The position numbers were made by a program, and so were the translations under genes. This document shows positions 1,138-62,800 of a stretch of DNA of 64,000 nt, one piece after another; the first letter of the stretch is position 1, and each line of letters begins with the position of its first letter. The stretch covers positions 186,001-250,000 of the forward strand of contig JAKLGA010000012.1 of NCBI GenBank assembly GCA_022710975.1, in the 5' to 3' direction. The notes beneath the pieces were generated by a model. It saw only the letters and a list, made by a program, of their open reading frames with translations, had not been told where the DNA came from and searched no databases. This DNA comes from Myxococcota bacterium (GTDB lineage Bacteria; Myxococcota; B64-G9).

Positions 1138-2489
1138 TGGCCAGGCCGCCCCACGGGCTGGTGCTGATCGTGGAGGACGATCCGCGCCTGGGGCCCCTGC
1201 TGCAGAGCTGGCTGAGCGAGCGCGGTCTCGAGGCGCTGCTTGCCAGCGGGGGCGAGCAGGCCCTGGAGCTGTTCGGCCGCCAGGCGCCGGACGTGGTGCT
1301 GACCGATCTCGTCATGCCGGGCATGTCGGGCCTCGACCTGTGCCGGCGCCTGCGGGAGCTCGATCGCACGCTGCCGGTGCTGCTGCTGACCTCCTTCGGC
1401 TCGATCCCCTCGGCGGTGGACGCCATGCGGTCCGGGGCGACCGACTACCTGTGCAAGCCCATCCAGCCCGACGAGCTGCTGGTGGCCCTGGAGCGGGCGC
1501 TCGAGTCCCGCGCGCTCCTGCGCGAGGTGGCCCGCCTGCGCTCGGCGCTCGACGAGCGCTACTCCTTCGACACCCTGGTGGCCCGCTCGCCGGCCATGGC
1601 GGCGCTGGTCGCGGAGGCCCGCCGGTTGGCGTCCCGCGAGGTGACCGTGCTGATCTGCGGCGAGAGCGGCAGCGGCAAGGAGCACCTGGCGCGGGCCATC
1701 CACCTGGCCAGCCCGCGCCGCGACCAGGCCTTGGTCGCCGTGGACTGTGGCGGGTTGACCGAGTCGCTGCTCGAGTCGGAGCTCTTCGGCCACGAGCGGG
1801 GCGCCTTCAGCGGCGCGGTCTGCGCCCGCCCCGGCCTGTTCGTGGAGGCCGACGGCGGCAGCCTGCTGCTCGACGAGGTGGCCAACATGTCGGCCGGGCT
1901 CCAAGTCAAGCTGCTGCGCGCGCTCCAGGAGCGTGCGGTGCGCGCCGTGGGGGCCAACCGCGACCGGCCGGTGGACGTGCGCCTGCTGGCCTGCACCCAG
2001 GCGGATCTCCAGGGCGAGATCGCCGCGGGGCGCTTCCGCGCCGACCTGTACTACCGGCTGGCCGTGGTGTGCCTGCGGCTGCCTCCGCTGCGCGAGCGGC
2101 CGGAGGACCTGCCCGAGCTGGCCGCGCGCTGCCTGGCGCAGCGGACCGGGAGCGGCGGCGCGCGGCGGCTGTCGAAGGCCGCCTCGGCGCGCCTGCTCGG
2201 CCACGCCTGGCCGGGCAACGTGCGCGAGCTCGAGCACACGCTGGCGCGGGCGGCGCTGCTGTGCGAGGGTGAGGTGATCCAGCCCGAGCACCTGGGCTTG
2301 GGGCCGGACCCGGCCGGCGTCCCGCTGCGCGAGCTGACCCGCGAGAGCCGTCAGCGGATCACGCGCCAGGCCATGCTGGACGCGCTGCGACGCACGAACG
2401 GCAACCGCAGCCAGGCAGCCCAGCGCCTGGGCATCAGCCGCACCCGCTTCTACCAGCTGGTGCGCGAACTGGAGTTGGACAAGCCATGA
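1137..2489 (+). CDS. Sigma-54-dependent response regulator (NtrC family)
   Basis: 450 aa. Receiver domain (about 1-125) with acidic pocket EDD at 13-15, phospho-acceptor Asp57 in LTDLVMPG and a Lys in LCKP near 106. The AAA+ sigma-54 activation domain follows (about 145-375): Walker A GESGSGKE near 175, a GAFTGA-loop variant GAFSGA near 222, and Walker B GGSLLLDEV. The C-terminus is a Fis-type helix-turn-helix (NRSQAAQRLGISRTRFY). The ATG lies inside the kinase stop codon (TGATG), so the pair is translationally coupled. The protein should activate sigma-54 promoters after phosphorylation by the upstream kinase. Targets are unknown; the lipoprotein gene that overlaps its 3' end is in the same operon. 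The Thr-to-Ser change in the sigma-54 contact loop is conservative. Confidence 0.95.
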   Translation: MARPPHGLVLIVEDDPRLGPLLQSWLSERGLEALLASGGEQALELFGRQAPDVVLTDLVMPGMSGLDLCRRLRELDRTLPVLLLTSFGSIPSAVDAMRSGATDYLCKPIQPDELLVALERALESRALLREVARLRSALDERYSFDTLVARSPAMAALVAEARRLASREVTVLICGESGSGKEHLARAIHLASPRRDQALVAVDCGGLTESLLESELFGHERGAFSGAVCARPGLFVEADGGSLLLDEVANMSAGLQVKLLRALQERAVRAVGANRDRPVDVRLLACTQADLQGEIAAGRFRADLYYRLAVVCLRLPPLRERPEDLPELAARCLAQRTGSGGARRLSKAASARLLGHAWPGNVRELEHTLARAALLCEGEVIQPEHLGLGPDPAGVPLRELTRESRQRITRQAMLDALRRTNGNRSQAAQRLGISRTRFYQLVRELELDKP

Positions 2490-3655
2490 AGCGACCCATG
2501 GGCCCGCTCCTGGCCGCCGGGGTGCTGCTGCTGGGCGCCGGCCTGGGACTCGGCGCCTGCGCCCACGGCTCGGGGGGCGAGATCGACGTGGACGAGGTGC
2601 AGGGTCAGGCCAACCAGATCGAGCGGCAGCTCCGGGCGATGCGCACGGCGCTGAAGGAGCGCGACGTCCCCCGCGCCGCGCAGGCCTTCCACCAGGCCGA
2701 GCTCGATCTCCAGGAGCACGGCGAGACGCTGGCCGCCTACCCGGAGCTCGGCGAGCTCAAGCGGGCGGTGAAGGAGTCCGCCGAGCGGCTGTGCTACGGC
2801 ACGGTGGACATCTCGCTCGAGAGCTGCTTCCAGGCGGTGCGAGCCAAGGACCTGCCCGCCGCCCGCGAGCGGCTGGCCGCGGCCCTCGCGGAGCACGAGC
2901 GCTGCAAGACCCAGATCGCCGGGCGCGAGGACTACACGCCGCTGAAGCTGAACCTGGACTCGGCCCCCCAGGCCCTGGCCGCGCTCGAGCGGGAGCTGGC
3001 CCTGCCCGGGCTCCAGGCGCGCGTCGGGGAGCGCCTGGGGGCGCTGCGCGAGCGGCTGGCCGCCCTGGACGAGAAGCTCAAGGCCCTGGAGGCGGACCCC
3101 CTGAGACGCGAGCTGGCGGCCGGGCTCGACGGCGAGCTCGCCGCGCTGCAGAAGGACCTGGGCGAGCCGTGGGCGCTGTCGGCCGAGCCCGAGTGGATCG
3201 CGCCGGCGGCCGCGCTGCGGGGGGAGCTGGACGCCCGCGGCAAGCGGCTCGCGGAGGCTGTGCGGCGCGGCAAGCTGCGCTGGCTCGTCGAGCGCGATCT
3301 GCCGGCCGCGCGCGAGGCGGCCGGGGCCGGCCAGGACGCGCTGAAGGCCATGGGCAAGGCCAAGCCCAAGGATCCGGCCCGCGAGCAGGCCAAGCAGACG
3401 GCCCGGGAGAAGCTCGGCGCGGCCCGCGAGCTCTACCAGGCCTGCCAGCAGACGCTGGCCGCGGTGCTCAAGGAGGAGCCGGGGCTGGGGAAGACCACCT
3501 GGGCCCTGGCCGGCAAGCCGCGCAGCCCGGGTCAGCTCCAGGCCACCTGCAAGGCCGAGGCGGCCCGGCTCGAGGCCGTGCTGAAGCGCCTCGAGCGCCC
3601 GCCGCCCCCGCCGCCCAAGCCCAAGAAGACCGGCCGCCGCATCCAGCGCTGGTGA
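2486..3655 (+). CDS. Predicted lipoprotein, Ala/Lys-rich helical
   Basis: 389 aa, beginning within the regulator's stop codon (ATGA). An N-terminal hydrophobic stretch ends in a lipobox-like LGAC at about residues 22-25, so a lipid-anchored protein is predicted; the residue after Cys is Ala, which is compatible with outer-membrane sorting. The rest is charged and helical with many Glu/Lys/Ala heptads and no recognisable enzyme motif, ending in a Pro-rich, Lys/Arg-rich tail (PPPPPPKPKKTGRR). I do not recognise a family. Its position as third gene of a kinase-regulator operon suggests an envelope component of the same response. It converges with the FHA gene with one base between the stop codons. 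Confidence 0.8.
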   Translation: MKRPMGPLLAAGVLLLGAGLGLGACAHGSGGEIDVDEVQGQANQIERQLRAMRTALKERDVPRAAQAFHQAELDLQEHGETLAAYPELGELKRAVKESAERLCYGTVDISLESCFQAVRAKDLPAARERLAAALAEHERCKTQIAGREDYTPLKLNLDSAPQALAALERELALPGLQARVGERLGALRERLAALDEKLKALEADPLRRELAAGLDGELAALQKDLGEPWALSAEPEWIAPAAALRGELDARGKRLAEAVRRGKLRWLVERDLPAAREAAGAGQDALKAMGKAKPKDPAREQAKQTAREKLGAARELYQACQQTLAAVLKEEPGLGKTTWALAGKPRSPGQLQATCKAEAARLEAVLKRLERPPPPPPKPKKTGRRIQRW

Positions 3656-3656
3656 G

Positions 3657-4967
3657 TCAGGCGTCGGTGCGCTCGGCGGCCAGGTCCTGCACCAGCTTGT
3701 ACCTCGAGCGGCCGATGACCAGCTCGTCGCCGGCTCGCAGCAGGGCGGTCCTGACCGTCTTGCCGTTCACCTGCGCCTCGGCGTGGCCCAGGCAGGTGAG
3801 GCGGTAACCCTCGCCCTCGCGCTTCAGGCGCGCGTGGACCGGCTTCACCCAGAAGCCCTTGGCGCGCACGTCCACGCCCTGCGTCTTGCCCAGGGTGATC
3901 TCCCCGCCGAGCGGCAGGGACAGATCCTCGCCCACCAGCTGCAGCTCGGAGGACTGGCAGGCCTGGGCCTGGGCGCCCAGCAGCAGGGTCGGCTCGGGGT
4001 GCTTCACGTCCAGCGGCTCGACCAGCTGCAGGACGAACTTGCCCACGCCCACCCGGTCCTGGGGGCCGACCAGCTGCTCCTGGACCCGGGTGCCGTTGAG
4101 CGTGGTGCCGTTGGAGGAGCCCAGGTCCTCCACCACGAACCGGCCGCGGCGCCAGGAGAGCCGGGCGTGCTGGCGGCTCACGCTCAGGTTGTCCAGGATG
4201 ATGTCGCAGCTGCGCTCCCGGCCGATCAGCATGGCCGGGGCCATGAAGGGCCGCTGGGCCACCGGCCGGCCGCCCATGGTGATCTGCACGTTGGTCGGGG
4301 GGGGCGGCTTGGCCTCCTGGGCCAGGACGGCCAGGCTCTTGCCCGCGTCCGGATCGGGCTCGATGGACAGGCGCTTGAAGACATCCAGCCGGCCGATGGG
4401 CGAGTTGGGCTGGAAGGCGAACAGCAGCAGCCGATCGGCGATGCCGCCCTCGCCGGGGTCGACCACGCCCTGGCCGAAGTACAGCCTGGCGGGTTGGCCC
4501 TGCTGCAGGAAGGCCAGCGTGCGGATTCCGTCCCGCTCGAGCGCCAGCGCGGCGTTCTGCCCCTCGCGCGCCAGCACCTCGAGCACGTGGGCCAGGTCGA
4601 CCAGGTCCGTGGTGGCCTGCAGCGAGGGGCGCTGCCGGAAGTGGACCGCGAGCAGCAGCACCCGCACCGCGTCCGCGCGCAGCAGCCGCCAGCGGGCCCG
4701 CTCGAGCTGCGCGGCCCGCAGCGGCAGGTTCGCCAGCGGCACCCAGGAGAAGCCGGCGGGCTCCACCAGCCCGGCCAGGTGGGTGCGCGACTGGTGCACC
4801 AGGCACACCAGGCGCGTCTCCTCGGTGTCTATCTCCAGCCAGCCGTCGGGGCACGCCCCGCGGGCCAGGTGCGCGTCCACCGCGGCCCAGGTGGCCTCGG
4901 AGAACTCCGCGCCCTCGGCGACCAGGCCGTCGTTGGGGAAGAGGGTCAGCGCCATGGCGGCGATCAT
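3657..4967 (-). CDS. FHA-domain protein
   Basis: 436 aa from the ATG at 4967; a TTG at 4991 (444 aa) or an ATG at 4955 are alternatives, and none has a convincing ribosome-binding site. The N-terminal ~200 residues (AEFSEATWAAVDAH onward) match no family I know. Around residues 225-300 a canonical FHA phosphothreonine-binding domain is visible: IGRERSCDI, SVSRQHARL, SSNGTTLNGTRV. A second FHA-like fold ends the protein (TLGKTQGVDV, HARLKREG, QVNGKTVRT, LVIGRSRYKL), lacking the SxxH and NG signatures. FHA domains read Ser/Thr kinase output; no Ser/Thr kinase gene is in the window, but two phosphatases are (22457-23245 and 25099-25941). Divergent from the E2-like cluster. Confidence 0.88.
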   Translation of the reverse strand: MIAAMALTLFPNDGLVAEGAEFSEATWAAVDAHLARGACPDGWLEIDTEETRLVCLVHQSRTHLAGLVEPAGFSWVPLANLPLRAAQLERARWRLLRADAVRVLLLAVHFRQRPSLQATTDLVDLAHVLEVLAREGQNAALALERDGIRTLAFLQQGQPARLYFGQGVVDPGEGGIADRLLLFAFQPNSPIGRLDVFKRLSIEPDPDAGKSLAVLAQEAKPPPPTNVQITMGGRPVAQRPFMAPAMLIGRERSCDIILDNLSVSRQHARLSWRRGRFVVEDLGSSNGTTLNGTRVQEQLVGPQDRVGVGKFVLQLVEPLDVKHPEPTLLLGAQAQACQSSELQLVGEDLSLPLGGEITLGKTQGVDVRAKGFWVKPVHARLKREGEGYRLTCLGHAEAQVNGKTVRTALLRAGDELVIGRSRYKLVQDLAAERTDA

Positions 4968-5040: not shown

Positions 5041-5070
5041 TTGACCGTCCGTCGGGGCGGCGGCTACCAT
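5041..5070 (+). promoter_or_regulatory. Predicted sigma-70-like promoter of the E2-like cluster
   Basis: TTGACC at 5041-5046, 18-nt spacer, TACCAT at 5065-5070. The -10 box overlaps the ATG at 5069, so transcripts would begin near 5076-5078 and could be leaderless, starting at the in-frame GTG at 5078. Confidence 0.5.
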
Positions 5071-5872
5071 GCCTCGCGTGAGCTTCGACGCCGCCGAGCA
5101 CCTCGTGCGCTACCGCGACCAGGTCGCGCGCCACCGCTTCGTGAACTGGACCCTCTCGGTCCACACCCGGCTGGACATCGACCTGACCGCGGCCGATCGC
5201 TACCTGGCCGAGCGGGCGCGCGCCGGCCGCACGCCACCGCTCACCCGCGAGCACCTGTGGCTGTGCGCCGCGGCGCGGGTGATCCGCGAACGCCCCCTGT
5301 TCAACGCCGCGTACGACGGCTTCCGCAAGCTCGAGCCGCGCGAGGACATCCACCTGCGGGTGACCGTCGAGCGCCCCCAGGGGATGGGGCGGGGGCTCAT
5401 CCCGCACGCCGATCGGCTGGACCCCGCCGGCATGGCCCGGGCGCTGGAGGAGGCCCGCGCGCGGGCCGCGGAGCCCTGGCAGGTGGAGGCGCCGCCGCGG
5501 CGGCGCCCCGGGCGGCTGGGGCGGCTGCGAGACGAGCTGGCCGAGGTGGTGAACGACTACGCCCCGCACCTGGAGCCCAGGCTGGGCGCCGCCTCCGGCC
5601 ACGACGCGGGCACCTTCGACGTGGTGAACGCGGGCGCCTACGGGGCGGAGGATCTGCACCTGGTGGTGCTGCGCCCGGCCGTGGCCGCGCTGGTGGTGAT
5701 GGCGCCCCGGGAGGACGTGGTGCCAGGCCCCGAGGTGCGGGTGCGTGTGCCCATGGCGGTACCCTTCTGCCACAAGGTGATGGACACGGACTCGGCGGGC
5801 TACTTCCTGCTCCACATGCAGCAGCTGCTGGACGATCCCGGGGCCAGCCTGGGCGGGGAGGGCGGGGCATGA
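5069..5872 (+). CDS. Lipoyl-less E2-like acyltransferase, paralogue A (His-x3-Asp retained)
   Basis: 267 aa (264 if translation starts at GTG 5078). The whole protein corresponds to the C-terminal catalytic domain of 2-oxoacid dehydrogenase E2, the chloramphenicol-acetyltransferase fold: a strand like LDIDLTAADRY, a helix LTREHLWLCAAARVI leading to PLFNAAYDG, a central TFDVVNAGAYG (compare E2 TFTITNLGMFG) and a final VPFCHKVMDTDSAG (compare the E2 signature DHRVIDGAEA). His235 and Asp239 fill the catalytic HxxxD positions; the following Gly is Thr. There is no lipoyl domain, no peripheral-subunit-binding domain, and no E1 or E3 gene nearby. It is the first of five consecutive divergent paralogues with overlapping starts and stops. 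Acyl donor and acceptor are unknown. Fold assignment is strong; activity is inference. Confidence 0.85.
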   Translation: MPRVSFDAAEHLVRYRDQVARHRFVNWTLSVHTRLDIDLTAADRYLAERARAGRTPPLTREHLWLCAAARVIRERPLFNAAYDGFRKLEPREDIHLRVTVERPQGMGRGLIPHADRLDPAGMARALEEARARAAEPWQVEAPPRRRPGRLGRLRDELAEVVNDYAPHLEPRLGAASGHDAGTFDVVNAGAYGAEDLHLVVLRPAVAALVVMAPREDVVPGPEVRVRVPMAVPFCHKVMDTDSAGYFLLHMQQLLDDPGASLGGEGGA

Positions 5873-6747
5873 GCCGGGTGGAGGGCGGACTCGAAGGCGC
5901 CGACGGCGCCGTCCTGACCCGGGACGACCTGCCGCTGGCGGAGCGGCTGGACGCGCGCCTGGATCAGGTGGCCGGGCTGCGCTACCAGCACTTGTGCCCG
6001 GCGGCCAACCTGCACATGGGGGCCGCGCTGGCGGCGCTCGAGCGCTTCCGCGCGGAGCGCGAGGCGCGCACCGGCGTGCGCCTCGGCCTGACCGCGCCGC
6101 TCGTGCGCGCCGCGGCCCTGGCGCTGGAGGAGGCCCCGCTGCTGGCCTGCCTGTTCGACGGCCGCGACCGGCTGGTCCCGGCCGAGCACCCGGCGCTCGG
6201 GGTGAGCGTGGACACGGGCGACGCGGCCCGATGCCTGGTGCTCGAGCGGGCCCGCGGGCTCGGGCTCGAGGAGCTGGCCGTGCGCATCCGCGAGGCCGCC
6301 GCGCGTTTCCGGGCCGAGGCCGCTCCGGCCTTCCGCCGGGCCGCGCCGGGCGCGGCGCCCGCCGGGGCCAGGCGGCGCCGGCTGGCGCACCTGCTCGCCC
6401 GGGAGGTCCGCGAGCGCTTCGCCTACCTGCTGCCCGGAGAGGTCGAGCGGCGTTTCGCGGGGCACGCCGCCCGGCAGGGGCACTTCACCGTCCACAACCT
6501 GGGCGCGCTCGGGGTGGACGAGTTCAAGGGCTTCCTGCGCCGGCCGGCGCTGGCCGCCCTGTGGGCGCTCACGGCCCAGCGCCGCGTGGTGCGCGGCCCG
6601 GACGGCCGCTACGCCGGGGAGCGCCGCCTGCCGCTCGTGCTGATCTTCAGCCAGGATCTGGTGCCGCTGGACCAGGCCTGCGCCTTCCTGCGGGGCATCG
6701 TGCGGCGGATCGAGCAGCCCGTCAGCCTCCTGGAGGGCGCGCCGTGA
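5869..6747 (+). CDS. Lipoyl-less E2-like acyltransferase, paralogue B (catalytic His lost)
   Basis: 292 aa. The ATG at 5869 overlaps the previous stop (ATGA). E2 catalytic-domain landmarks are visible: LTAPLVRAAALALEEAPLLACLFDG, HFTVHNLGALGVDEF and the terminal LIFSQDLVPLDQACAFL. In the last motif the catalytic His of DHRVIDG is Leu264 while the Asp (268) is kept and Gly is Gln. A long middle insert (RFRAEAAPAFRRAAPG onward) separates the two halves. No lipoyl or E1/E3-binding part is present. Because E2 domains form trimers with active sites at subunit interfaces, a His-less subunit could still be structural or contribute half-sites in a hetero-oligomer with paralogue A; this is inference. 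The longer upstream open frame is only an antisense shadow of the FHA gene. Confidence 0.82.
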   Translation: MSRVEGGLEGADGAVLTRDDLPLAERLDARLDQVAGLRYQHLCPAANLHMGAALAALERFRAEREARTGVRLGLTAPLVRAAALALEEAPLLACLFDGRDRLVPAEHPALGVSVDTGDAARCLVLERARGLGLEELAVRIREAAARFRAEAAPAFRRAAPGAAPAGARRRRLAHLLAREVRERFAYLLPGEVERRFAGHAARQGHFTVHNLGALGVDEFKGFLRRPALAALWALTAQRRVVRGPDGRYAGERRLPLVLIFSQDLVPLDQACAFLRGIVRRIEQPVSLLEGAP

Positions 6748-7652
6748 GCCCCCGCCGCGAGGTGCCGCCGGGCCTCACGCGTGGCCAGCTCGATGGCTGG
6801 ATCCGGCGGCGGACCGCGTACATCAACCGCTTCCACGTGGCCCACTGGTACCCGAGCTGCTGCGTCCAGGCGCGCGTCGACCTGACGGCCGCGGACGCGC
6901 TCCGCAAGCGGCTGAACGCCGAGGACGACCAGCCCGGCAGCCGGGTGACCATCAACCACATGATCAACAAGGCCGCGGCGAACGCGCTGCGCAACCACAT
7001 CCTGTTCAACGGCAAGTACACCCGGCGCGACTCGGCCATGATCTACCAGCGCGTCCACGCGGCCAACGTGGTGGACACCGGCGGCATGGCCACCCGCATC
7101 GTCATCCGCGACGCGGATCGGCTCAGCCTGCGGGAGCTGGCCGCCGAGACCCACCGCCTGGTGTCCGCGCGCCGGCTCACCCTGGGCGAGAAGCTCGACC
7201 GGTACTCCGAGCTCCAGGAGAAGGTCCGCCTGGTGGAGGCGATGTTCTGGTTCCTGCCCTACTCCAGCAGGCTGGAGCGCGAGCTGTCCCACGAACGCGC
7301 CCTGGACTTCCTGGTGGAGAACCCCTCCACGGTGGTGATCACCAACCCGGGCACCCTGGGTGTGCAGGACTGCAAGGCCATGCTGTTCTTCGGCAACCTG
7401 CTCACCTGCCTGCGGGCGATGGCCATCGAGGAGGAGGCGGTGCTCGAGGACGGCCAGCTCCGCTTCCGCAGGGTGCTGCCGGTGGGCCTGGACTACGACC
7501 AGCGGCTGTGCGACGCCGGGCCGGCCGTCCGGCTGCTGAACGAGATCCGCCGCAACCTCGAGGTCCCCGAGCCCTACCTGGTGGGGCCGGCGGTCGAGGA
7601 TCCGCGGGCGCCGCTCGCCTGGCCGGCCGGGCGCGGCGGGGAGGAGGGCTGA
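6744..7652 (+). CDS. Lipoyl-less E2-like acyltransferase, paralogue C (His replaced by Gln)
   Basis: 302 aa starting at a GTG that overlaps the preceding stop (GTGA). This is the paralogue that looks most like ordinary E2 at its N-terminus: ARVDLTAADALRKRLNA, then VTINHMINKAAANALRNH and ILFNGKY. Later come STVVITNPGTLGVQDCKAM and the C-terminal VGLDYDQRLCDAGPA, where the E2 HxxxDG is Gln253-x3-Asp257-Ala. It lacks the lipoyl and subunit-binding domains. It shares an N-terminal feature with paralogue A (RYRDQVARHRFVNW there, RRTAYINRFHVAHW here), which supports common ancestry. Loss of the catalytic His argues against independent acyltransfer; substrate binding, regulation or a shell function remain possible. 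Confidence 0.84.
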   Translation: MSPRREVPPGLTRGQLDGWIRRRTAYINRFHVAHWYPSCCVQARVDLTAADALRKRLNAEDDQPGSRVTINHMINKAAANALRNHILFNGKYTRRDSAMIYQRVHAANVVDTGGMATRIVIRDADRLSLRELAAETHRLVSARRLTLGEKLDRYSELQEKVRLVEAMFWFLPYSSRLERELSHERALDFLVENPSTVVITNPGTLGVQDCKAMLFFGNLLTCLRAMAIEEEAVLEDGQLRFRRVLPVGLDYDQRLCDAGPAVRLLNEIRRNLEVPEPYLVGPAVEDPRAPLAWPAGRGGEEG

Positions 7653-8263
7653 TGGACCTCGTCGAGCGTGTGCGCGCGCGGGCCGAGCTGCTGCGCGGTG
7701 CCCGCGGTCGGGCCGCGCCCACGGCCAGCCTGCAGATCCTGGTGCGGGCCGGCGCCTGGTCGGACCCATCCGCCGGCGAGCGCCTGGCGCGGCTGTGCCT
7801 GGCCGCCGCCGAGGCCCTGGGGGCCGATCCGCTGTTCGCCGCCCGGCGCACCGCCCGGCTGCGGGTGCAGGCCCCGGCCGAACCGGTCCTGTGGGTCGGA
7901 CCGGACGGAGGCCGGACCTGGCTGCGCCTGGGCCGCGCCGAGCTCGGCGCGGGCTGCCAGGCGCTGGCAGCCAGGCTCTCGGCTGGCGACCCGCGCGCGG
8001 AGGCGACGGCGCCCGCAGGCCTGGAGATCCTGGACCTCTCGACCCTCGGCGCCCTCGAGTGGCGCGGGGCGCTGCTGGGCGGCGCGCAAGGCCGGCTGTG
8101 CCTGCTGGCGGCCCGGCCGGCGCCCTCCGGCGCGCAGGAGGCCTTCGGGCTGGCGCTGGACTTCGACGCCGCCTGGTGCGAGGCCGGCCGGGCGGCCCGC
8201 TTCCTGGCGGCGGTGGCCACGGCCCTGGGCGCGGAGCGGGTGGGATGCGGGCCGCGGAGCTGA
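7652..8263 (+). CDS. Short E2-like paralogue D, degenerate
   Basis: 203 aa, the shortest of the five. Its ATG shares one base with the previous stop (TGATG). The E2-like helix (RLARLCLAAAEALGADPLFAARR), the central strand (GLEILDLSTLGALEW) and the C-terminal motif LALDFDAAWCEAGRAARFL can still be aligned, but the catalytic His is Ala173 and the Asp is Glu177. The N-terminal strand and the middle loops are shortened. On its own it would be hard to assign; position and alignment with neighbours make the family call. It overlaps the next gene by 19 nt. Probably a non-catalytic subunit or a decaying copy; the intact frame and coupling favour the former. Confidence 0.72.
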   Translation: MDLVERVRARAELLRGARGRAAPTASLQILVRAGAWSDPSAGERLARLCLAAAEALGADPLFAARRTARLRVQAPAEPVLWVGPDGGRTWLRLGRAELGAGCQALAARLSAGDPRAEATAPAGLEILDLSTLGALEWRGALLGGAQGRLCLLAARPAPSGAQEAFGLALDFDAAWCEAGRAARFLAAVATALGAERVGCGPRS

Positions 8264-9036
8264 TCGCCGAGCGGCGCGGGGCGCTGCGCGACGCGGCCCC
8301 GGCGCGGGTGACGCCGGCGCACCAGGTGTGGCTGGAGGCGCCGCTCGCCCCCGCCCAGGCCATGCTGGACCGGCTCCACGCCGAGGGTGGCCTGCCGCCC
8401 GGGTTGCGGGCCGAGGTGCGCCACCTGCTGCTGCGGGCCGCGGCGCGGGCCCTGGAGCGGCACCCCTGGTTCAACGACTTCCTGCTGCTCTCGGGCGGGG
8501 TGCAGCACAACGAGCTGGTGTCGGTGCGGGTGAGCCTGGACGCCGAGGGCCGGCCGGGCCACTGCAGCGTGCCCGACCCCGGCCGCCGGCCGCTCGTCGA
8601 GGTGCTGGCCGAGGCGGCCGCGCGCGAGGTGGAGGAGGGCGTCGAGGCGGTGCGCAGGGCGGTCAAGCTGGCCCGCGTGCGGCGCTCGCGGCCGGTGTTC
8701 TCCCGGCTGGTCAGCGAGGGGGTGCTGGAGCCGCTGCACTGGCTGCGGGATCGCCTGCCGGCGCTCGAGCGGCGCCTGCGCCGCGACGTCCGGCGCCACG
8801 GCAGCCTCGGCCTGCTCGACGTGGGCCCGCTCGGGGCGACCGGGGTGGCCGGGGTGCTGCTGGCCTGCCACTCCGCCCTGCTCCTGCTGGCCGCGCCCCG
8901 CCCGGGGCGGGAGGCCGGGCCGCGCCTGCCCGTGGGGCTCGCGTTCGACGCCCGGCTGTTCGAGGCGCACGAGGCCGTGGCCTTCCTGCGCGAGGTGACC
9001 GAGCTGCTGGCCGAGCCGGAGGCCCGGCTGGCCTGA
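8245..9036 (+). CDS. E2-like paralogue E, catalytically degenerate
   Basis: 263 aa; the ATG at 8245 lies 19 nt inside paralogue D in another frame. Landmarks: an N-terminal strand HQVWLEAPLAPAQAML, a helix LLLRAAARALERHPWFNDF (matching the E2 helix before HPLLNA), a central GSLGLLDVGPLGATGV, and the C-terminal VGLAFDARLFEAHEAVAFL where the E2 His-x3-Asp is Ala236-x3-Glu240. No lipoyl domain. Last of the five E2-like genes; a well-placed ribosome-binding site follows for the SRPBCC gene 10 nt downstream, so all six genes look like one transcript. Functional role unknown. Confidence 0.76.
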   Translation: MRAAELIAERRGALRDAAPARVTPAHQVWLEAPLAPAQAMLDRLHAEGGLPPGLRAEVRHLLLRAAARALERHPWFNDFLLLSGGVQHNELVSVRVSLDAEGRPGHCSVPDPGRRPLVEVLAEAAAREVEEGVEAVRRAVKLARVRRSRPVFSRLVSEGVLEPLHWLRDRLPALERRLRRDVRRHGSLGLLDVGPLGATGVAGVLLACHSALLLLAAPRPGREAGPRLPVGLAFDARLFEAHEAVAFLREVTELLAEPEARLA

Positions 9037-9046
9037 AGGGGAGCCC

Positions 9047-9562
9047 ATGCACTTCCAGGTGGAGCACACCATCCGCATCCCGTTCGAGCGCTACTACGAC
9101 GTGGTGCTCTCGGATGACTTCCTGCGCTGGGCCGGCAAGAAGATGAAGGTCGCCGAGCGGAGCCTGGTGCGCAACGAGGAGTCGGGCGGGCTGCTCTACC
9201 GCACGGTGCGCACCGCCTGGGACGTGTCGGAGCGCGCCCAGCGCTTCCTCAAGGCCCCGCGCTTCGAGCTTGAGGAGCGCCTGGTGCTCGATCGCGCCCG
9301 GCACACCTACACCTGGGAGTACGCCCCCAGCGTGTGGGCCAACCGCTTCTCGGCCCGCGGCAGCGGCCGCCTGGAGCAGGCCGGCGCCCACGTGAAGCGG
9401 GTGGTGGAGGGGGAGATCACGGTGCGCGTCTTCCTGCTCGGCGGCCGCTTCGAGCGCAAGGTGGCGGAGCGCATGCGCGCCTTCGTCACCCGCCAGGGCG
9501 ACAGCGTGGAGGAGTACTACCGCACCCAGCTCGCGCCGCAGGGCGCGCCCGCACAGGGCTGA
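9047..9562 (+). CDS. SRPBCC/DUF2505-like protein
   Basis: 171 aa. The ATG follows a good ribosome-binding site (AGGGGAG). The pattern is a START/SRPBCC hydrophobic-cavity fold as in DUF2505: an N-terminal FQVEHTIRIPFERYYDVV (strand and helix), strands through RTVRTAW and ELEERLVL, and a long C-terminal helix (KVAERMRAFVTRQGDSVEEYY). These proteins bind lipids or other hydrophobic ligands in general, but DUF2505 members have no established activity that I know of. Its place at the end of the E2-like operon makes it a candidate carrier or binder of the acyl substrate of that system, which is inference from context only. No signal peptide. Confidence 0.78.
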   Translation: MHFQVEHTIRIPFERYYDVVLSDDFLRWAGKKMKVAERSLVRNEESGGLLYRTVRTAWDVSERAQRFLKAPRFELEERLVLDRARHTYTWEYAPSVWANRFSARGSGRLEQAGAHVKRVVEGEITVRVFLLGGRFERKVAERMRAFVTRQGDSVEEYYRTQLAPQGAPAQG

Positions 9563-9567
9563 GCCCC

Positions 9568-10398
9568 TCAGCGACCGCCCTGGGCGGTCAGGCTGGCCTC
9601 CAGCTCCCGGATGGCCCGCTCCACGTCGCGTTCCAGCGTGGCCCGCGTGCGGTTGACGTAGCGCAGCTCCTCGCTCAGGCTCTCGATGGTCTCGGGCGGC
9701 GCCGTCTGCACGTCTCTCAGCAGCTCGGCGATGCGCTGGTCGATCTCGCGCGCCAGCTCGCGCAGCTCCTCGAGCTTGGCGAGCAAGCCCTGGAAACGGT
9801 GGCGGTTGCCTTGCAGCCGGTCGAGATCCACGACGGTCACCTGGACGGCCGCCTCCCGACGGTTGCCGGCCGGATCCAGCGCGGCGACCGCGATCCGCTG
9901 CGGCCCGGCAGGCAGGTCGAGCTCGCCGGTGAACACACCGGCGGCCTCCTCGCCGAGCAGCACGCCACCGGCCGAGACCCGCGCTGCGGGCTCGGAGCGG
10001 ACCCGCACGACCACGGGCCGCCGGGTGAGGAAGGCGCGCGCCGCGGGCTCGAGGATGAGCAGCGGCGGCGGCTCGGTGTCTGCCGGCGCGCCGGGGGGCT
10101 CCGGGATGGGCGTGGGCCGGGGCCTCGGCGCGACGGGATCCCGGGCCAGGGCCACGTCCCGCGGGTTGATCCGCGGCGGCGCGCGGACGGGGTCCGGCGC
10201 GGGGGTGTCCGCCGGCGGCGCCGGGGGCGGTGCAGGCGCGGGGGGCGGGGCCGGCGCGGGGGGCGGGGCCACGCCAGGCCGCGGCGGGGGCGGCGCGGGC
10301 GGACCCAGCCGCTGGACCGCCCACAGCGCGCCGAAGGTGGCCACGGCCACCCCCAGCACGCCGGTCAGGAGCCAGCCTTTCCCGCCTGCACGCGCCAT
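9568..10398 (-). CDS. Membrane-anchored Pro-rich protein with Ig-like and coiled-coil segments
   Basis: 276 aa. A short basic N-terminus is followed by one membrane segment (about 10-28), then about 85 residues rich in Pro/Ala. Residues about 110-190 read as a small beta domain (RPVVVRVRSEPAARV, VFTGELDLPAGPQRIAVAALDPAGN), like a bacterial Ig-type or PEGA-like domain. The C-terminal ~80 residues are a coiled coil (LLAKLEELRELAREIDQRI). A Pro-rich periplasmic spacer carrying a small beta domain is a typical envelope-spanning layout; the function is unknown. The start is supported by an upstream promoter on the minus strand. It converges with the SRPBCC gene, 5 nt between stops. Confidence 0.75.
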   Translation of the reverse strand: MARAGGKGWLLTGVLGVAVATFGALWAVQRLGPPAPPPPRPGVAPPPAPAPPPAPAPPPAPPADTPAPDPVRAPPRINPRDVALARDPVAPRPRPTPIPEPPGAPADTEPPPLLILEPAARAFLTRRPVVVRVRSEPAARVSAGGVLLGEEAAGVFTGELDLPAGPQRIAVAALDPAGNRREAAVQVTVVDLDRLQGNRHRFQGLLAKLEELRELAREIDQRIAELLRDVQTAPPETIESLSEELRYVNRTRATLERDVERAIRELEASLTAQGGR

Positions 10399-55379: not shown

Positions 55380-55616
55380 CTAGAGCTCGATCACGTTGCA
55401 GGTCACGGTGCGGATCACGCCCTCGATCATCTGGATCTGGGAGTAGGAGATCTTGCTGAGGGCCACCTCGCTCTCGCCCTCCACCAGGGCCACCAGATCG
55501 AAGTGCCCGGTCACCGCCATGCAGGACTGCACGCCCTGGATGCGGTTGATGCGCCTCTGGATGGCGGGGATGGTCCCCGCGGCGCCCTCGATGAACACAT
55601 ACGCCTTGGCCGACAT
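55380..55616 (-). CDS. Standalone Lrp/AsnC ligand-binding (RAM) protein 1
   Basis: 78 aa from the ATG at 55616; no DNA-binding helix-turn-helix. It is only the RAM domain of Lrp/AsnC regulators: AYVFIEGAAGTIPAIQRRIN, then GVQSCMAVTGHFDLVALVEG and the strand VIRTVTCNVIEL. RAM domains bind amino acids and form oligomers. Standalone forms exist in many bacteria, with roles in modulating full Lrp proteins or enzymes. It is closely similar to the next gene upstream, so they are tandem duplicates. Converges with ygeW across 127 nt. Confidence 0.87.
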   Translation of the reverse strand: MSAKAYVFIEGAAGTIPAIQRRINRIQGVQSCMAVTGHFDLVALVEGESEVALSKISYSQIQMIEGVIRTVTCNVIEL

Positions 55617-55700
55617 GCTCACTCTCCCGTACCCCCTGGGTTCCTGCTCCAGCCCTCCCAAGGCCGTCCGGGCCGACGCAGCCCGCGTCGCCGCCGGGGG

Positions 55701-55940
55701 CTACTCCAGATCGATCACGTTGCAGGTGATCGTCCGGATCACGCCCTCGATCATCTGGATCTTCGAGTACGACACCTTGCCCACGGCGTTGATGTCGTCG
55801 GCCTCGACCAGCGCGATGATGTCGAACTGGCCGGTGACCGCGTGCGCCGTCCTGACGCCCTCGATGGTCCCCAGCCGCTTGAGGATGTTGGGCACCGTGC
55901 CGGCCGCCCCCTCGATCAGAATGTAGGCTTTCGCGGACAT
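55701..55940 (-). CDS. Standalone Lrp/AsnC ligand-binding (RAM) protein 2
   Basis: 79 aa from the ATG at 55940, with AGGAGTG upstream. RAM domain only: AYILIEGAAGTVPNILKRLG, then GVRTAHAVTGQFDIIALVEA and VIRTITCNVIDLE. About two thirds of positions match the neighbouring copy at 55380, so this is a recent tandem duplication with differences in the ligand-facing middle part (SCMAVTGHFD against AHAVTGQFD). A promoter lies upstream at 55992; the second copy, 84 nt downstream, is probably on the same mRNA. Ligand unknown, likely an amino acid. Confidence 0.87.
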   Translation of the reverse strand: MSAKAYILIEGAAGTVPNILKRLGTIEGVRTAHAVTGQFDIIALVEADDINAVGKVSYSKIQMIEGVIRTITCNVIDLE

Positions 55941-56027: not shown

Positions 56028-56051
56028 TCGTCAGGGCATCTCGTCAGGGCA
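56028..56051. repeat. Short direct repeat at the 3' end of the large TPR gene
   Basis: TCGTCAGGGCA occurs at 56028-56038 and 56041-56051, the second copy covering the stop codon. It looks like a small duplication of the gene's end. Confidence 0.5.
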
Positions 56052-59000
56052 GGCGCACGATCAGGGCGGCGGTGTCGGCCGCATCGACCTGCCGGCAGAA
56101 CTCGGCGAAGGCGGGGTGGTCGGCCGGGGCCACCCGGCCCGGGCGCACCAGCAGGCTCTTCGAGAGCAGCACGCGATCGCCGGTCTGGCTCAGGCGCTGG
56201 TGGAATTCGCCCATCGGACCGAGGAGATCCACGGCGGCCTGCGGCTCCAGGCGCGCCCCGAGCGGCAGCTTCAGGCGGACCTCGGTGCGCGTCATGGTGG
56301 CGTCGTCGAGCGCCAGGGGGGTCTGGCGCGGCCCGGGGATGATCAGGTTCTGCACGAGCTGGTAGGGGTAGAAGCCGCCGCGCAGCGCCAGGCGGCCGTC
56401 CCTGGCCCGGGCGTGGTGCGGCACCCGGAAGCGGTAGCGGATGGCCAGCGGGACCTCCGCGTCCTGGAGCGCGCCGAACTCGAAGGACTCCAGGCGCGCC
56501 CCGGGGAAGAACGCGCCCAGGCCGGTCTCCAGCACCTGGCGCTGCTGGGCCTGGCTCAGGCCGGCCAGGAGCTCGCGGTACTGCACGGCCTGGGCCGTGG
56601 CGATCACCTCCCGGCCCTCCCCGCTCAGCCCGCCGTCCGCGCCGAGCTCGAGCTCGAGCGCGATGCGCTTCTCCAGGCTCTCCGGGGGCACGGCCGGCAA
56701 CCGGGTCCGCCCCGGGGCGGCCGGCCGGGCGGGCGTGCCCAGGTCGAGCGCCGGCATGCCTCCCAGGTAGGGGTAGAGCCGGTCGAAGGCGTGGAAGCGC
56801 TCGCCGGGATCGAGCCACACGGGCGCCCCGCCGCCCTCGGGCACCACCTGGACCAGCCCGGAGCCGAAGGCGCCGGGCAGCGGCAGGGCGTAGTCCACCT
56901 GGGCCTGCCCGGCCGTGCGGGCCAGCAGCACCCGCGGCTCCAGGCCCAGCGCGCGCAGCGCGGCCACGAGCAGCACCAGCCGGTTGCCCTGCCGGGCGGC
57001 CAGCACGCTGGTGGCCGGCAGCTCGAAGGACGAGGCCGGCTCGGTCTGGCGCACCTCCTCGAGCAGCCTGCGGAACAGCCGGCGCAGGCGCTCGCGCCCG
57101 CCCGCGTCCGGCGGTCCGGCGGCCGCGCGCGCCCAGCGGGCGAGCTCGTCGCTCGGCCGGGTGGCCTCCAGCAGCTCCTCCCGCCACAGCGCGCGGTGAT
57201 CCTCCCAGCCCTGGCCGAAGCCGAGCTGGACGAAGGGCACCCACTCGTGGGCCGGGGCGGCGTGCGGCTCGGGCTTGAGGGCCGGCGCCCGGCGGGTCTC
57301 GAAGACCAGCACCTCGAGGCCGTCCTGGAACTCGCGCCGCGGGGCCGGCGCGCCGTGGTGGGCGTCCACCACCACGGGCGTGCCGGGCGGGACCGCCAGG
57401 CTCTGGCGCGACCACCACAGCGGCGCGTTGGCCGCGCCGAACAGGAAGGGCAGGCTCTGGTACGCCCGGCCGAAGGGGGTGCGGCCGGACAGGCCCTGGA
57501 CGTAGGCCAGCTCGACGAAGTCGCCCACCTTGAGCCCGGGCAGCGACACGCTGTCCTTGCCGGGGATGACCTCGGCCTCGTGGCTGCTCCCGTCGGCGCC
57601 GAGCGTGCGCAGCCGCTCCACGTGGGCCCCCGCGGGGATGTGGCTGATCTCGCCCCACTGGTCCACCGACTCGGGCGAGCGCAGCTGGACCAGGGTGTGC
57701 ACCCGCTCGAGCGCGGTGCCGTCCGCGGCCACCTCCGCCGCGGCGAAGTCGAGCACCACCACCGTGCCGCCCTCCAGCGGCGCGTCCGCCAGGTACTCGG
57801 CGATCACCTGGTGGGCGTCCAGGCGCAGATCGCCCACCAGGCGCACGCCGTCGAGCCCGTCCTGGGCGGCCAGCGCGCGGCGCAGCCCCAGGTCGGAGGG
57901 GTGGGCGCGGCTGAGCGCCCGGCGCAGGGCCAGGGCCTCGGCCGGGCGCCCGCGCCGATCGGCCAGCTCCGCCCGGCGCAGGCTGAGCTCGTCCGCCGCC
58001 GGGCTGGCGGGGCCCAGGGCGGCCTCGGCCTCGGCCAGGGCGGCCTCGGCGGCCTCCAGCTCCCCCCGCGCGAGCAGCCCGTCCAGCCAGGTCAGGTGCA
58101 GCCCGGGCCGGGTCGGATCGCGGGCCAGGCTCCGCGCGCGCCAGGCCTCCGCCCGGGCCCGCTCGCCCCGCTGGAGCCACAGCTCCGCCACCTCGGGCCC
58201 GGCCAGCCCGAGGGAGTCGAGCCGCTCGGCCAGGGCGGCCGCCGGCGCCAGGGCGTTCGAGTGCGTCAGGCGCTCGAACAGGGCGCCCAGCGCCTCCGCG
58301 TCGTCGGGCAGGCGCGCCAGGGCCTGGCGCTCCGCGGCCTCGGCCTCCGCCCCCCAGCCGAGCTTGTCCAGGATGCGGGCCCGGGCGAGCGGCCACAGGC
58401 GCGCGGAGGGGTGGCGCGCGTCCAGCGCCGCCAGCGCCTCGAGCGCCCGCTCCGGCTCGCCGTGCTCTCCGTCCAGGAGCGCCAGGTGGAAGCGGGCCAT
58501 GTCGAGCTCCGGGCTCTGGCCGAGCGCGGCCTGCAGGCGCTCCCGGGCGCGCACCGCGTCGATGCCGGTGGGCATCTCCGGGTCCGCGAACAGGGCCAGC
58601 GCGTCCGCGTAGACGGCCAGGGGGAAGCGTCCGGCGCGCGCCTCGGCCTGGTGCAGCCAGGCCCGGGCGCCCTTGAGGTCGCCTCGCCGCCAGGCCGCCA
58701 GCCCCGCCAGCCAGGGGCCGAGCGCGTCGTTCGGCCGGGCGGCGGCGCCCGCCTCGAGCGAGGACCAGGGCTCGGGATCTGCGGGCAGCGGCCGCGACGG
58801 AGCGGTCCGGGGCGGCGGCGCCTCGCGCGCCGACCACCAGGCGAGCCCCGCCGGGCGGCCATCCAGCCGGCCCACCTCGACGGTGAAGCGCGCGCGGCCC
58901 TGGCGCAGGGGGGCCTTGAGCAGCAGCCGGTGCCAGCCGGCCTGGGCCTCGAGCGCGGCGCAGCCCTCGCGCGGCCCGTAGGCGCGGTGGGCCAGGCGCG

Positions 59001-59862
59001 CGAGCGTGGCGCGGCCGTCCACGGACAGCAGGTACGAGCCCGGGCTCCCGGCGCACACCGCCAGCCCGGCCGGGGCCTCGAGGCGGAAGTAGGCCTCGGC
59101 GAACAGGACGCCCGCCTCGTCCACCTCGACGAACAGATCTCCGTCCTCTGTCGCGGCCGGGTACAGGTCGAGCCCGGTGGCCGCGGCCGGCGGGCCCTGC
59201 TCGGGAGGGAAGGGCCGCTCGAGGTCCAGGATGCCGTGCCGGCCGTAGGGCAGCGCCAGGCGCCAGATCGGCACCCGCCCCAGGGCCGCGCTCGCCGCGG
59301 CGGCCTCCCGCGCGCGGCCGTGCCGGCGGGCGAGCTGGAGCAGGCACGCGCCGAGCTCCCGCGCCAGCCCGCCGGGCGCGCGCTCGAGCAGCCGGCCGGC
59401 GCGCGGCGCCACGAGCTCCCAGCCGCCCGGCAGCTCTCCGGCCGCGTCGCCGAGCAGCCGCGCCGCCAGGGCCGCCTCGGGCGCCCCGGGCGCGGCCTCG
59501 ACCGCGCGCAGCAGCGCCTCGCTGGCCTCGGCCAGGCGCGCCCGGCCGGTCTCGGCCAGGGCCGCCGCCAGCCAGGCCCGGGCGGCCTCCGGGCCCGCGG
59601 GCAGCGTCTCGGCCGCCCGGGCGAGGTCGTCCAGCGCGGCGCCGAGCTCCGCCCCGTGCACCAGCCGGGCCAGGCCGCGCTCGCGGCTCGCCTCGGGCGT
59701 CCCGGCCGGGGCGGCCAGCAGCTCCGCCACCCGGGCGGGCCGGAGATCGGGTCCGGGCCCGGGCCGCAGCGCCGCGGGCGGCGGGCAGCCGGCGGCCCCC
59801 AGGGCCAGGCCCAGCAGGCAGATCCAGGCCGGGCGGCCGGGCTCAGCGCGCCTGGAGCGCAT
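56044..59862 (-). CDS. Giant lipoprotein: TPR array plus inactive transglutaminase-like domain (DUF3857 type)
   Basis: 1272 aa. Signal peptide with lipobox LGAAGC (Cys near 26). Residues about 40-700 are Ala/Leu/Arg-rich TPR-type helix pairs with a beta segment near 230-350 (DGDLFVEVDEAGVLFAEAYF). About 740-860 matches DUF3857 (HTLVQLRSPESVDQWGEISHI, GKDSVSLPGLKVGDFVELAYV), followed by a transglutaminase-like fold. Its catalytic Cys position, GDC in the paralogue, is GNR (Arg961), and the His segment FNHAI is FGSGL, so two of three catalytic residues are gone. A C-terminal beta domain ends the protein. It overlaps its upstream paralogue by 20 nt, so both are coexpressed. Probably an envelope scaffold; substrate unknown. 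Confidence 0.85.
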   Translation of the reverse strand: MRSRRAEPGRPAWICLLGLALGAAGCPPPAALRPGPGPDLRPARVAELLAAPAGTPEASRERGLARLVHGAELGAALDDLARAAETLPAGPEAARAWLAAALAETGRARLAEASEALLRAVEAAPGAPEAALAARLLGDAAGELPGGWELVAPRAGRLLERAPGGLARELGACLLQLARRHGRAREAAAASAALGRVPIWRLALPYGRHGILDLERPFPPEQGPPAAATGLDLYPAATEDGDLFVEVDEAGVLFAEAYFRLEAPAGLAVCAGSPGSYLLSVDGRATLARLAHRAYGPREGCAALEAQAGWHRLLLKAPLRQGRARFTVEVGRLDGRPAGLAWWSAREAPPPRTAPSRPLPADPEPWSSLEAGAAARPNDALGPWLAGLAAWRRGDLKGARAWLHQAEARAGRFPLAVYADALALFADPEMPTGIDAVRARERLQAALGQSPELDMARFHLALLDGEHGEPERALEALAALDARHPSARLWPLARARILDKLGWGAEAEAAERQALARLPDDAEALGALFERLTHSNALAPAAALAERLDSLGLAGPEVAELWLQRGERARAEAWRARSLARDPTRPGLHLTWLDGLLARGELEAAEAALAEAEAALGPASPAADELSLRRAELADRRGRPAEALALRRALSRAHPSDLGLRRALAAQDGLDGVRLVGDLRLDAHQVIAEYLADAPLEGGTVVVLDFAAAEVAADGTALERVHTLVQLRSPESVDQWGEISHIPAGAHVERLRTLGADGSSHEAEVIPGKDSVSLPGLKVGDFVELAYVQGLSGRTPFGRAYQSLPFLFGAANAPLWWSRQSLAVPPGTPVVVDAHHGAPAPRREFQDGLEVLVFETRRAPALKPEPHAAPAHEWVPFVQLGFGQGWEDHRALWREELLEATRPSDELARWARAAAGPPDAGGRERLRRLFRRLLEEVRQTEPASSFELPATSVLAARQGNRLVLLVAALRALGLEPRVLLARTAGQAQVDYALPLPGAFGSGLVQVVPEGGGAPVWLDPGERFHAFDRLYPYLGGMPALDLGTPARPAAPGRTRLPAVPPESLEKRIALELELGADGGLSGEGREVIATAQAVQYRELLAGLSQAQQRQVLETGLGAFFPGARLESFEFGALQDAEVPLAIRYRFRVPHHARARDGRLALRGGFYPYQLVQNLIIPGPRQTPLALDDATMTRTEVRLKLPLGARLEPQAAVDLLGPMGEFHQRLSQTGDRVLLSKSLLVRPGRVAPADHPAFAEFCRQVDAADTAALIVRLP

Positions 59863-62800
59863 GGGCGCCTCCCTTCGGCTCGAGGCGCACCCGGCGCCCG
59901 AGCAGCTGGTCGGCCTCCTCCAGGAACGCGCGGAAGTCCGCGTAGCCCGCGGCCGGGACCCGCGGCACGGACAGCTCGAACACGGCCTCGGTGCGCAGCC
60001 CGGTGCCCTCGGGGCGGGAGCTGAAACGGACCTGGCCGAAGGGGCCCTGCAGCGCCCCCTCCCCCGGCGGCGCGCCCAGCGCGAAGCCGAGCGGCGGCTC
60101 GAGCTTCACGCTCCAGCGGATGCGCCAGGCCGGTCCCAGCAGCAGGTCGTGCCGCCGCTGCTCGAGGCCGGCGAACATGCTCTGGTAGCGGGTCTCGCGC
60201 GCCAGCGCGGGCAGCTCCAGGCCGCCCGCCTCCCGCGCGGCCAGGGCGGGCAAGCGCAGGCGGGCGCGCAGGCCGAGCGGGCGCTCCGGCTCGAGCAGCC
60301 CGTCCAGCGCGAGCTCCTCGACCTGCACCCCGGGGAACACCTCGCGCAGCATGCGTCCGAAGGTCTCGGCCCGCGCCTCGGCGCCCAGCAGCGGCAGGCG
60401 CATCTCGGGCGCCAGCACCCCGGACACCCGCATGTCCATGGTCAGCTCGGCGCCGCCGTCCTCGGCCAGCGCCACCAGCAGCTCGAGCTCGGTCCAGTTG
60501 CGGTCCGGCCCGGTCACCGGGGTCAGGCGCAGGGCGGCCCCGTCCGGCTCCACCACCAGCGCCTGGACGCCCTGATCCTGGGCGGGCAGATCCAGGGCGT
60601 CGTACAGCGTGGCGGTGCCGTCCAGCCACACGTCCTGTCCGGGCAGGTAGCAGATGGCGTGGTTGAAGGCCGCCAGCGAGGCCGGCTGATCGGGCAGCCG
60701 CCCGAGCCGGGCCATGCGCACCAGCGCCAGGCGGGCGGGGATGCCCACCGACTCGAACAGCGCCACCAGCAGGGCCGACTTGTCCTTGCAGTCGCCGAAC
60801 TTGCGCTGCAGCACCTGGTCGCACTGGTACGGCACGTAGGAGTGGATGCCGAACTCCAGCCCCACGTAGCGCGTGCCGTCGGCCACGAAGCGGTAGATGG
60901 CCCGCACCCGGTCGAGGGGCTCCGTCAGGCCCGCCACCAGCTCGCTCGCCAGCGCGCGCACCTCGGGCCCCGGCACCAGGGCGTCGGCGATCTGGCCGTG
61001 GTACCAGCGGGACAGCTCGGGCCAGCGCGGCAGGCTGGAGAGGTGCAGGCTGGCGTGCTCCTCGGCCAGGCCCGGCATGCCCGGCTCCTCCACCACCCCG
61101 GGCAGCGCGCCCGAGGTCCACACCAGCGCGCGCGAGCCGTCCGGGGCGGGCCGGACCTCGTGGCGCAGGCGCGCATCGGCGCTGGCCTCCACCTCCCGGC
61201 CGGGCGGCACCAGCAGCACGTAGCTCGCGCGCCGCACCGGCTCCTCGAACTGGAGCTGCACCAGATCGCCGAAGTAGTCCGACAGCAGCGCCTCGCCGCC
61301 CAGGTCGTCGACCAGGGTCGAGAGCTCGACCAGATCGCCCGGGCGCAGCTCGGGGAAGGTCACCTGGCGCACGTGCACGTCGTAGTACATGTTGAACCAG
61401 GGCTCCGACACCGACTGGTCCTGGACCAGCACGCCGTCGTCGAAGCCGCCGTCCGCGTGCCGCAGGCGGTGGGAGAGGATGCGCACCTCCTGGCGGCCGG
61501 GGGCGTAGTCCACCTGGAAGGTGCGCAGGCGCTCCGCGGCCCGGGCGTCCAGCACCCGCACGATCTGCTGGCGGAAGCGGGCGGCCATGCCGTTGGGGTG
61601 CAGGCGCACCACGTGCAGCTCGAGCAGCCGCTCGGCCCCGGCCGCCAGGGCCTCCGGGCCGGGGCCGGGCCGCAGCAACTCTTGAGGATCGGCCCGGTAG
61701 CCCTCGTAGAACGGCGGCGCCGCGGGCTCGAGGGCGGCGATGCGCCGGCGGAGCGCGGCGTCCTGGGGCGCCAGGGCGAGCGCCGCGCGCAGCAGCTCCA
61801 CGGCCACGTCGGCCTGGCCCAGGCGCAGGCGGGCGTCGGCCTGGTCCTGGAGCGGCTGGGGATCGGCCGGGCAGATGCGGCCCGCCTCGCGGAAGGCAGC
61901 CAGGGCCTCGTCCGCCCGCCCGTTGGCCTGCAGCAGCGCCCCGCGCTCCTGCCACCAGGCCGTCCGCAGCGGGTCCAGCCGCTGCAGGCGGTCCAGCCAG
62001 CCGAGCGCCGCGGGCAGATCGCCCCGGGCGAGTGCCAGCTCGTGCAGCGCGCGCAGCGCCAGGCCGTGGTCCGCCCGCTGGGCGGCCAGGCGCTCGAACA
62101 GCGCCCTGGCCCGCTCGAGATCGCCCTGCTGGCGGGCCTGCTGGCCGGCGGCGGCCAGCACGTCGGGCACCTCGGGGTGGGCCGCGACCAGGGCCTCGAG
62201 CTCCCGGGCCGCGAGCCCGGGCAGGCGTAGATCGGCCAGCGCCTCGGCCCGGCCGATCTGGCTGGGCAGGTGGCCGGGCGCCAGCGCCAGGGCCTGGCGG
62301 TAGCGCCGCAGCGCCTCGTCCGCGTCCCCGCGCACCTGGCGCAGCAGCCCCAGCCGGTGCGGCGGGCGTGGGTCGCGCGGGGCGAGCCGGGCCGCCTCCT
62401 CGAGCGCGACCCGGACCGGGTCCTCGTCCTCGCCGAGCAGCGCGGCCCACAGCATGCCGGCCAGCGCCTCGGGCGGCGCCGCGGCCCCGGGCTCGCTGGG
62501 CCGCCAGGCCGCGAGCGCGTCCTTGAGGTGCTGCTCGGCCCGCCGCGCGCGCTGGTCGCCGCTCCCCAGGTGGTAGAGCGCCAGGGCGGCCTCGGCCAGG
62601 CGCCGGGCCCGCGTCGGCCCGTCGGCCGCCTGGGCCTGGGCCTCGAACCACGCGGCCAGGCCCTCCACGGCCTCGGGGGAGAGCTCCGGCGGCGCGGCCC
62701 GCGGGGCCAGCGCGCGACGCAGGGCCGCCTCGTCCGCGGCCTCCTCCAGGCCGGCCAGGGGCTGGCCGCGCTCGTCGGTCAGCGCCAGCGCGAAGCCCAT

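Follow-up and report, generated by a model that had tools for sequence, protein, structure and literature searches.

What is the function of five consecutive genes that each encode little more than the catalytic domain of a 2-oxoacid dehydrogenase E2 component? The question is raised by a locus in the window, a stretch of 64,000 nucleotides from the genome of a Myxococcota bacterium (G000). The five predicted frames, g1 to g5, lie head to tail on the plus strand and overlap by 4, 4, 1, and 19 nt (Table 1). All five exist as first described, and the original prediction of an operon of five overlapping genes stands to that extent, but it has to be amended at both ends: a sixth gene, encoding a DUF2505 protein and beginning 10 nt downstream of g5, belongs to it, and the likeliest start of g1 is GTG 5078 rather than ATG 5069, because 5070 is the last base of the -10-like hexamer of a promoter-like site and the alignment of the orthologues begins at the GTG. 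The site, of which 0.0 occurrences were expected in shuffles, takes the form TTGACC-17/18-TACCAT in G006 and G007 and TTGACC-18-TATCCT in G004, the other genomes with the quintet. Together, the overlapping frames and the common promoter-like site suggest that expression of the quintet genes is coupled. The hexamer ends 7 nt ahead of GTG 5078, and the window g1 mRNA may be leaderless; the g1 leaders of the orthologues are longer.

Table 1. Features of the quintet locus (window coordinates) and GH3 genes of two-gene relatives (locus coordinates)
Feature	Coordinates	Strand	Basis or context
Putative lipoprotein, VDEVQG motif	2486..3655	+	No Pfam match; adjoins FHA gene in G006 and G007
Divergent FHA-domain protein	3657..4967	-	Beside quintet in G006 and G007, further away in G004
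Promoter-like TTGACC-18-TACCAT	5041..5070	+	Precedes g1 in 4/4 quintet genomes
g1, E2-like CAT-fold protein	5078..5872	+	Pfam, AlphaFold model, alignment
g2, E2-like CAT-domain protein	5869..6747	+	Pfam, alignment
g3, E2-like CAT-domain protein, best-conserved member	6744..7652	+	Pfam, alignment
g4, shortened CAT-fold paralogue without inter-lobe insertion	7652..8263	+	hhalign, AlphaFold and Foldseek
g5, E2-like CAT-domain protein	8245..9036	+	Pfam, alignment
DUF2505 (SRPBCC, AhfA-like lipid-binding) protein, sixth operon gene	9047..9562	+	Pfam DUF2505
GH3 acyl-activating gene	L042:3182-4894		Directly upstream of DUF2505 and pair
GH3 acyl-activating gene	L044:969-2681		Directly upstream of DUF2505 and pair

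Pfam searches placed the 2-oxoacid_dh domain (PF00198) above cut-off in g1 (45 bits), g2 (51 bits), g3 (88 bits), and g5 (25 bits), with no match of g1 to g5 to the CAT family proper, and g4 alone gave no Pfam match. The profile of four g4 orthologues aligned with the family profile at an hhalign probability of 98.2 (E 4e-14), against 0.1 for a DUF2505 control, and the AlphaFold model of g4 (pLDDT 88.6) has E2 cores as its best Foldseek matches (E 9e-11); the two together rule out g4 as an unrelated protein. The model of g1 (pLDDT 86.1) likewise finds E2 catalytic cores as its best matches (E 2.5e-16), and both modelled members thus have the CAT fold, the assignment of the others being by sequence. 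Pfam detected neither a lipoyl domain nor a subunit-binding domain in g1 to g5, and no E1 or E3 among the neighbors scanned, the rest of the window having been read by eye as predicted ORFs, and no lipoyl domain was found anywhere on contig C4, which contains the window. The locus is therefore as the original prediction had it in these respects: catalytic CAT-fold domains only, with no E1, E3, or lipoate-type machinery nearby.

The order g1-g2-g3-g4-g5-DUF2505 is identical in the window genome and in the metagenome-assembled genomes G006, G007, and G004 (loci L039, L040, and L041, respectively; public records JAFCZJ01, JAFGRB01, and JALVPF01). These represent four genera of one Myxococcota family, to which the quintet is limited, and four of the nine genomes examined from the window's class, itself a single family; Myxococcus and its kin share the phylum. 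Identity to the window g3 is 73% in G006, 70% in G007, and 53% in G004; for the fast-diverging g4 and g5, identities are 34-48%. Between G006 and G007, dN/dS lies at 0.13-0.37 for the quintet genes, with the strongest constraint on g3 (0.13), although dS is near saturation and these rough values are indications only. The FHA and lipoprotein genes are also kept beside the quintet in these two genomes. When 84,980 species were scanned for the family pattern, the quintet or its two-gene version appeared only in the seven other genomes already known here, and almost all other matches were single, longer proteins with a canonical DHRxxDG motif. Because order and frames have been kept across four genera at such rough dN/dS values, the conservation of the quintet is not due to chance. 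The locus is real, and its synteny is stronger than the original prediction could show; the random decayed array that would have spoken against it was not seen.

A tree of 38 proteins agrees with the description of the five as distinct paralogues. Every quintet position forms its own clade with support of 100/99 or better, and the standalone relatives form a separate one (100/99). Since each position corresponds to one clade, the five paralogues predate the split of the four genera, their order having been retained since. Position g3 groups with member A of the two-gene version (86/83), and deep branching among the groups has moderate support only. This pair is present in G026, G013, G020, and G008, which belong to other families of the phylum, and single lipoyl-less E2-like relatives are widespread in the phylum. 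In three of the four genomes (G026, G013, and G020) the pair adjoins a gene of the same DUF2505 subfamily; in G008 the two lie on different contigs, with DUF2505 at L207:8972-9478. The window gene at 9568-10398 and the gene adjoining DUF2505 in G008 are not homologous (E 0.77), which rules out synteny between them.

The residues of the active site are distributed unevenly among the five proteins. In Escherichia coli E2p, one chain contributes H603' and D607' and the neighboring chain S551 (PMC8421416). When the E2 of the genome itself was aligned with these proteins to locate the catalytic positions, g1 was found to keep His (codon 5771-5773) and Asp (5783-5785) in all four genomes, with Val or Leu at the Ser/Thr position (Val in the window, codon 5624-5626). 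Its motif is CHKxMDT or NHNxMDT (CHKVMDT in the window), not DHRxxDG, and the segment FCHKVMDTDSAGYFL ranks among the best conserved in g1. Conversely, g3 has Thr (codon 7341-7343) in all four genomes and Gln in place of the catalytic His (codon 7500-7502), again in all four. Because the segment around this Gln is one of the two best conserved in g3, loss of the His does not look like decay. Neither catalytic half is present in g2, which has His at the Ser/Thr position throughout. The His of g4 is absent in the window and present only in G006 and G007, with Leu at the Ser/Thr position in all four genomes, and g5 is without catalytic His in all four and has Ser in two. The original prediction that all five are acyltransferases does not survive these observations: the catalytic His is missing from four of the five window proteins and, in g2, g3, and g5, from every quintet genome. 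A better wording would be one acyltransferase assembled from five dissimilar subunits, if indeed it transfers acyl groups at all. The prediction also passed over the DUF2505 gene, the two-gene relatives of other families, and the division of the active site.

His, Asp, and Ser/Thr occur together in none of the 20 quintet proteins, as compared with nine of nine standalone relatives and six of eight pair proteins, among them both proteins of G008; the His is present in seven of the eight pair proteins. With six His-positive and six Ser/Thr-positive proteins among the 20, zero overlap would arise by chance with a probability of about 0.08 if the rows were independent, and they are related. The split is persuasive not because of this bare count but because it is the same in all four genera and has a parallel in the pair of G020, in which A has His and Asn and B has Val and Thr.

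The nature of the substrate is suggested by the sixth gene. Its product matches DUF2505 over residues 5-157 of 171 (49.2 bits; cut-off 26.9), and its matches to PDB sequences were at chance level only. Across 195 genomes of the phylum, a profile of the subfamily, built without G008 and G013, scored at least 179 bits in all eight genomes with a quintet or pair and no more than 75.6 bits in the other 187. For AhfA, a DUF2505 protein that Corynebacterium glutamicum needs to make mycolic acids, a helix-grip fold of the lipid-binding kind is predicted (PMC9671496), and the sixth gene product is, by analogy, a putative lipid-binding, carrier-like protein. The likeness to AhfA lies in the DUF2505 domain and its SRPBCC lipid-binding fold; AhfA acts in mycolate synthesis or transport, and E2-like genes alongside it are not described in the literature examined. 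In G026 and G013 a GH3-family acyl-activating gene stands directly upstream of DUF2505 and the pair. Both of these genomes have a second GH3 copy elsewhere. The co-occurrence of the DUF2505 gene, the link of AhfA to lipids, the upstream GH3 gene, and the absence of canonical E2 from most of these genomes (see below) together suggest that acyl groups are transferred to a hydrophobic molecule or taken from it.

A hetero-oligomer would be the natural reading of five such paralogues and is supported by the division of residues. The explanation we favor, if tentatively and at a probability just short of even, is that g1 to g5 form an obligate hetero-oligomeric CAT-fold acyltransferase whose active sites are split between chains, with the DUF2505 protein as carrier of its hydrophobic acyl substrate. 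The ancestor would have been a two-gene, lipoyl-independent E2-like enzyme from which the quintet arose by duplication. His and Asp would be provided by g1 (and by g4 in some genomes) and Thr or Ser by g3 (and by g5 in some), with g2 contributing neither. In E2 trimers the Ser/Thr of the neighboring chain stabilizes the tetrahedral intermediate; since His and Thr act across the chain interface, contact between g1 and g3 would rebuild the full site, and a complete site would exist only at an interface of this type. The remaining members, g2, g4, and g5, could be structural, gating, or substrate-binding pseudo-subunits. In place of delivery by a lipoyl arm, a thioester or an adenylate-derived donor would supply the acyl group, which would be transferred to or from a hydrophobic substrate brought by the DUF2505 (SRPBCC) carrier. 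In its strictest form the proposal describes a lipoyl-free lipid acyltransferase whose five subunits, all obligate, derive from the splitting of one ancestral E2-type enzyme, with every site heteromeric (His from g1, Thr from g3) and most subunits dead on their own; this is possible, though we consider it somewhat improbable.

Other explanations for the locus have to be weighed against the same observations. The quintet may have lost catalysis altogether and serve as a heteromeric E2-like scaffold or shell in which a hydrophobic ligand is bound or stored, with the g1 His a relic. CAT-fold cores self-assemble, most of the window proteins lack the His, and even g1 may be inactive, its motif departing from DHRxxDG. 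However, retention of His and Asp by g1 in every quintet genome, the conservation of the surrounding segment, and the His of the pair relatives make such a loss unlikely. If g1 were instead a homomeric acyltransferase, alone or with g4 where that protein keeps its His, then g2, g3, and g5 would be loosely bound regulatory or targeting pseudoenzymes. In CAT-type enzymes the Ser/Thr is helpful but not strictly essential, and a g1 homotrimer could therefore keep some activity; moreover, only g1 has His and Asp in all four genomes. We regard this as quite unlikely, given that the Ser/Thr has been lost from g1 throughout and is kept by g3, the member under the strongest, if roughly estimated, constraint.

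The likeness in sequence and fold to E2 cores also raises the possibility of a 2-oxoacid dehydrogenase accessory. E3BP/PDHX pseudo-subunits mix with active E2 in eukaryotic PDH cores (PMC2880790, PMC8146983), so such co-assembly is feasible; E3BP has no known catalytic function and has been modeled in 2:1 heterotrimers with E2 (PMC8146983). Like these proteins, g2, g3, and g5, and g4 of the window, are E2 paralogues without catalytic His. In contrast to E3BP, which has lipoyl and E3-binding domains, g1 to g5 have neither by Pfam, and they are five paralogues with a complete active site in none. Of the eight genomes with a quintet or pair, seven (G004, G006, G007, and the four pair genomes) have no detectable canonical E2, and in these the system does not serve a dehydrogenase complex. 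This result, together with the lack of lipoyl domains on the contig and of E1 and E3 among the scanned neighbors, largely refutes an accessory role, which is very improbable. A decaying array of duplicates without joint function, to which the missing catalytic residues of most copies and the fast divergence of g4 and g5 might point, is scarcely credible, being refuted by the unvarying gene order of the four genera, by the single clade at each position, by intact frames, and by the rough dN/dS values.

Canonical E2 cores are symmetric assemblies with active sites between identical chains. The quintet proteins share with the E2 inner core a fold and a family, and their active sites can be aligned to it position by position. 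They differ from it in the missing domains and partners, in occurring where canonical E2 is undetected, in an insertion of some 35-45 residues between the lobes of g1 to g3 and g5 (not g4), and in the division of the site halves among paralogues, no quintet protein combining DHRxx(D/N)G with Ser/Thr in the same chain. Closer relatives are the standalone Myxococcota E2-like proteins (e.g., G000:C11:26684-27424), which share the phylum, the CAT-domain-only architecture, and the length of the inter-lobe insertion; unlike the quintet, they are encoded by single genes and have intact His/Asp and Thr. The Foldseek matches of g4 include chain 8p5r (OdhA/KGD). OdhA/KGD of Actinobacteria carries an E2 succinyltransferase domain and E1 in one polypeptide (PMC10415282); it is E1-fused and part of a dehydrogenase complex, whereas the quintet consists of free-standing paralogues. 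A literature search for tandem lipoyl-less E2 genes found nothing relevant, and division of both site halves among paralogues is new as far as the literature examined shows. With the halves of an E2 site apparently dealt out to paralogues, the quintet offers a clean, testable case of the passage from homomer to obligate heteromer. If the proposed heteromeric enzyme exists, an E2-type acyltransferase would be working outside 2-oxoacid dehydrogenases, alongside a member of a lipid-carrier family, DUF2505, otherwise known mainly from mycolate-making actinobacteria.

Elsewhere in the window, two tandem small genes on the minus strand (55380-55940) encode proteins of 78 and 79 aa that begin almost identically (MSAKAY..IEGAAGT) and look like Lrp/AsnC ligand-binding domains. 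Two adjacent, very long minus-strand frames of 1272 and 1246 aa (56044-63583) lie where the GC content of the window is highest (up to 0.82).
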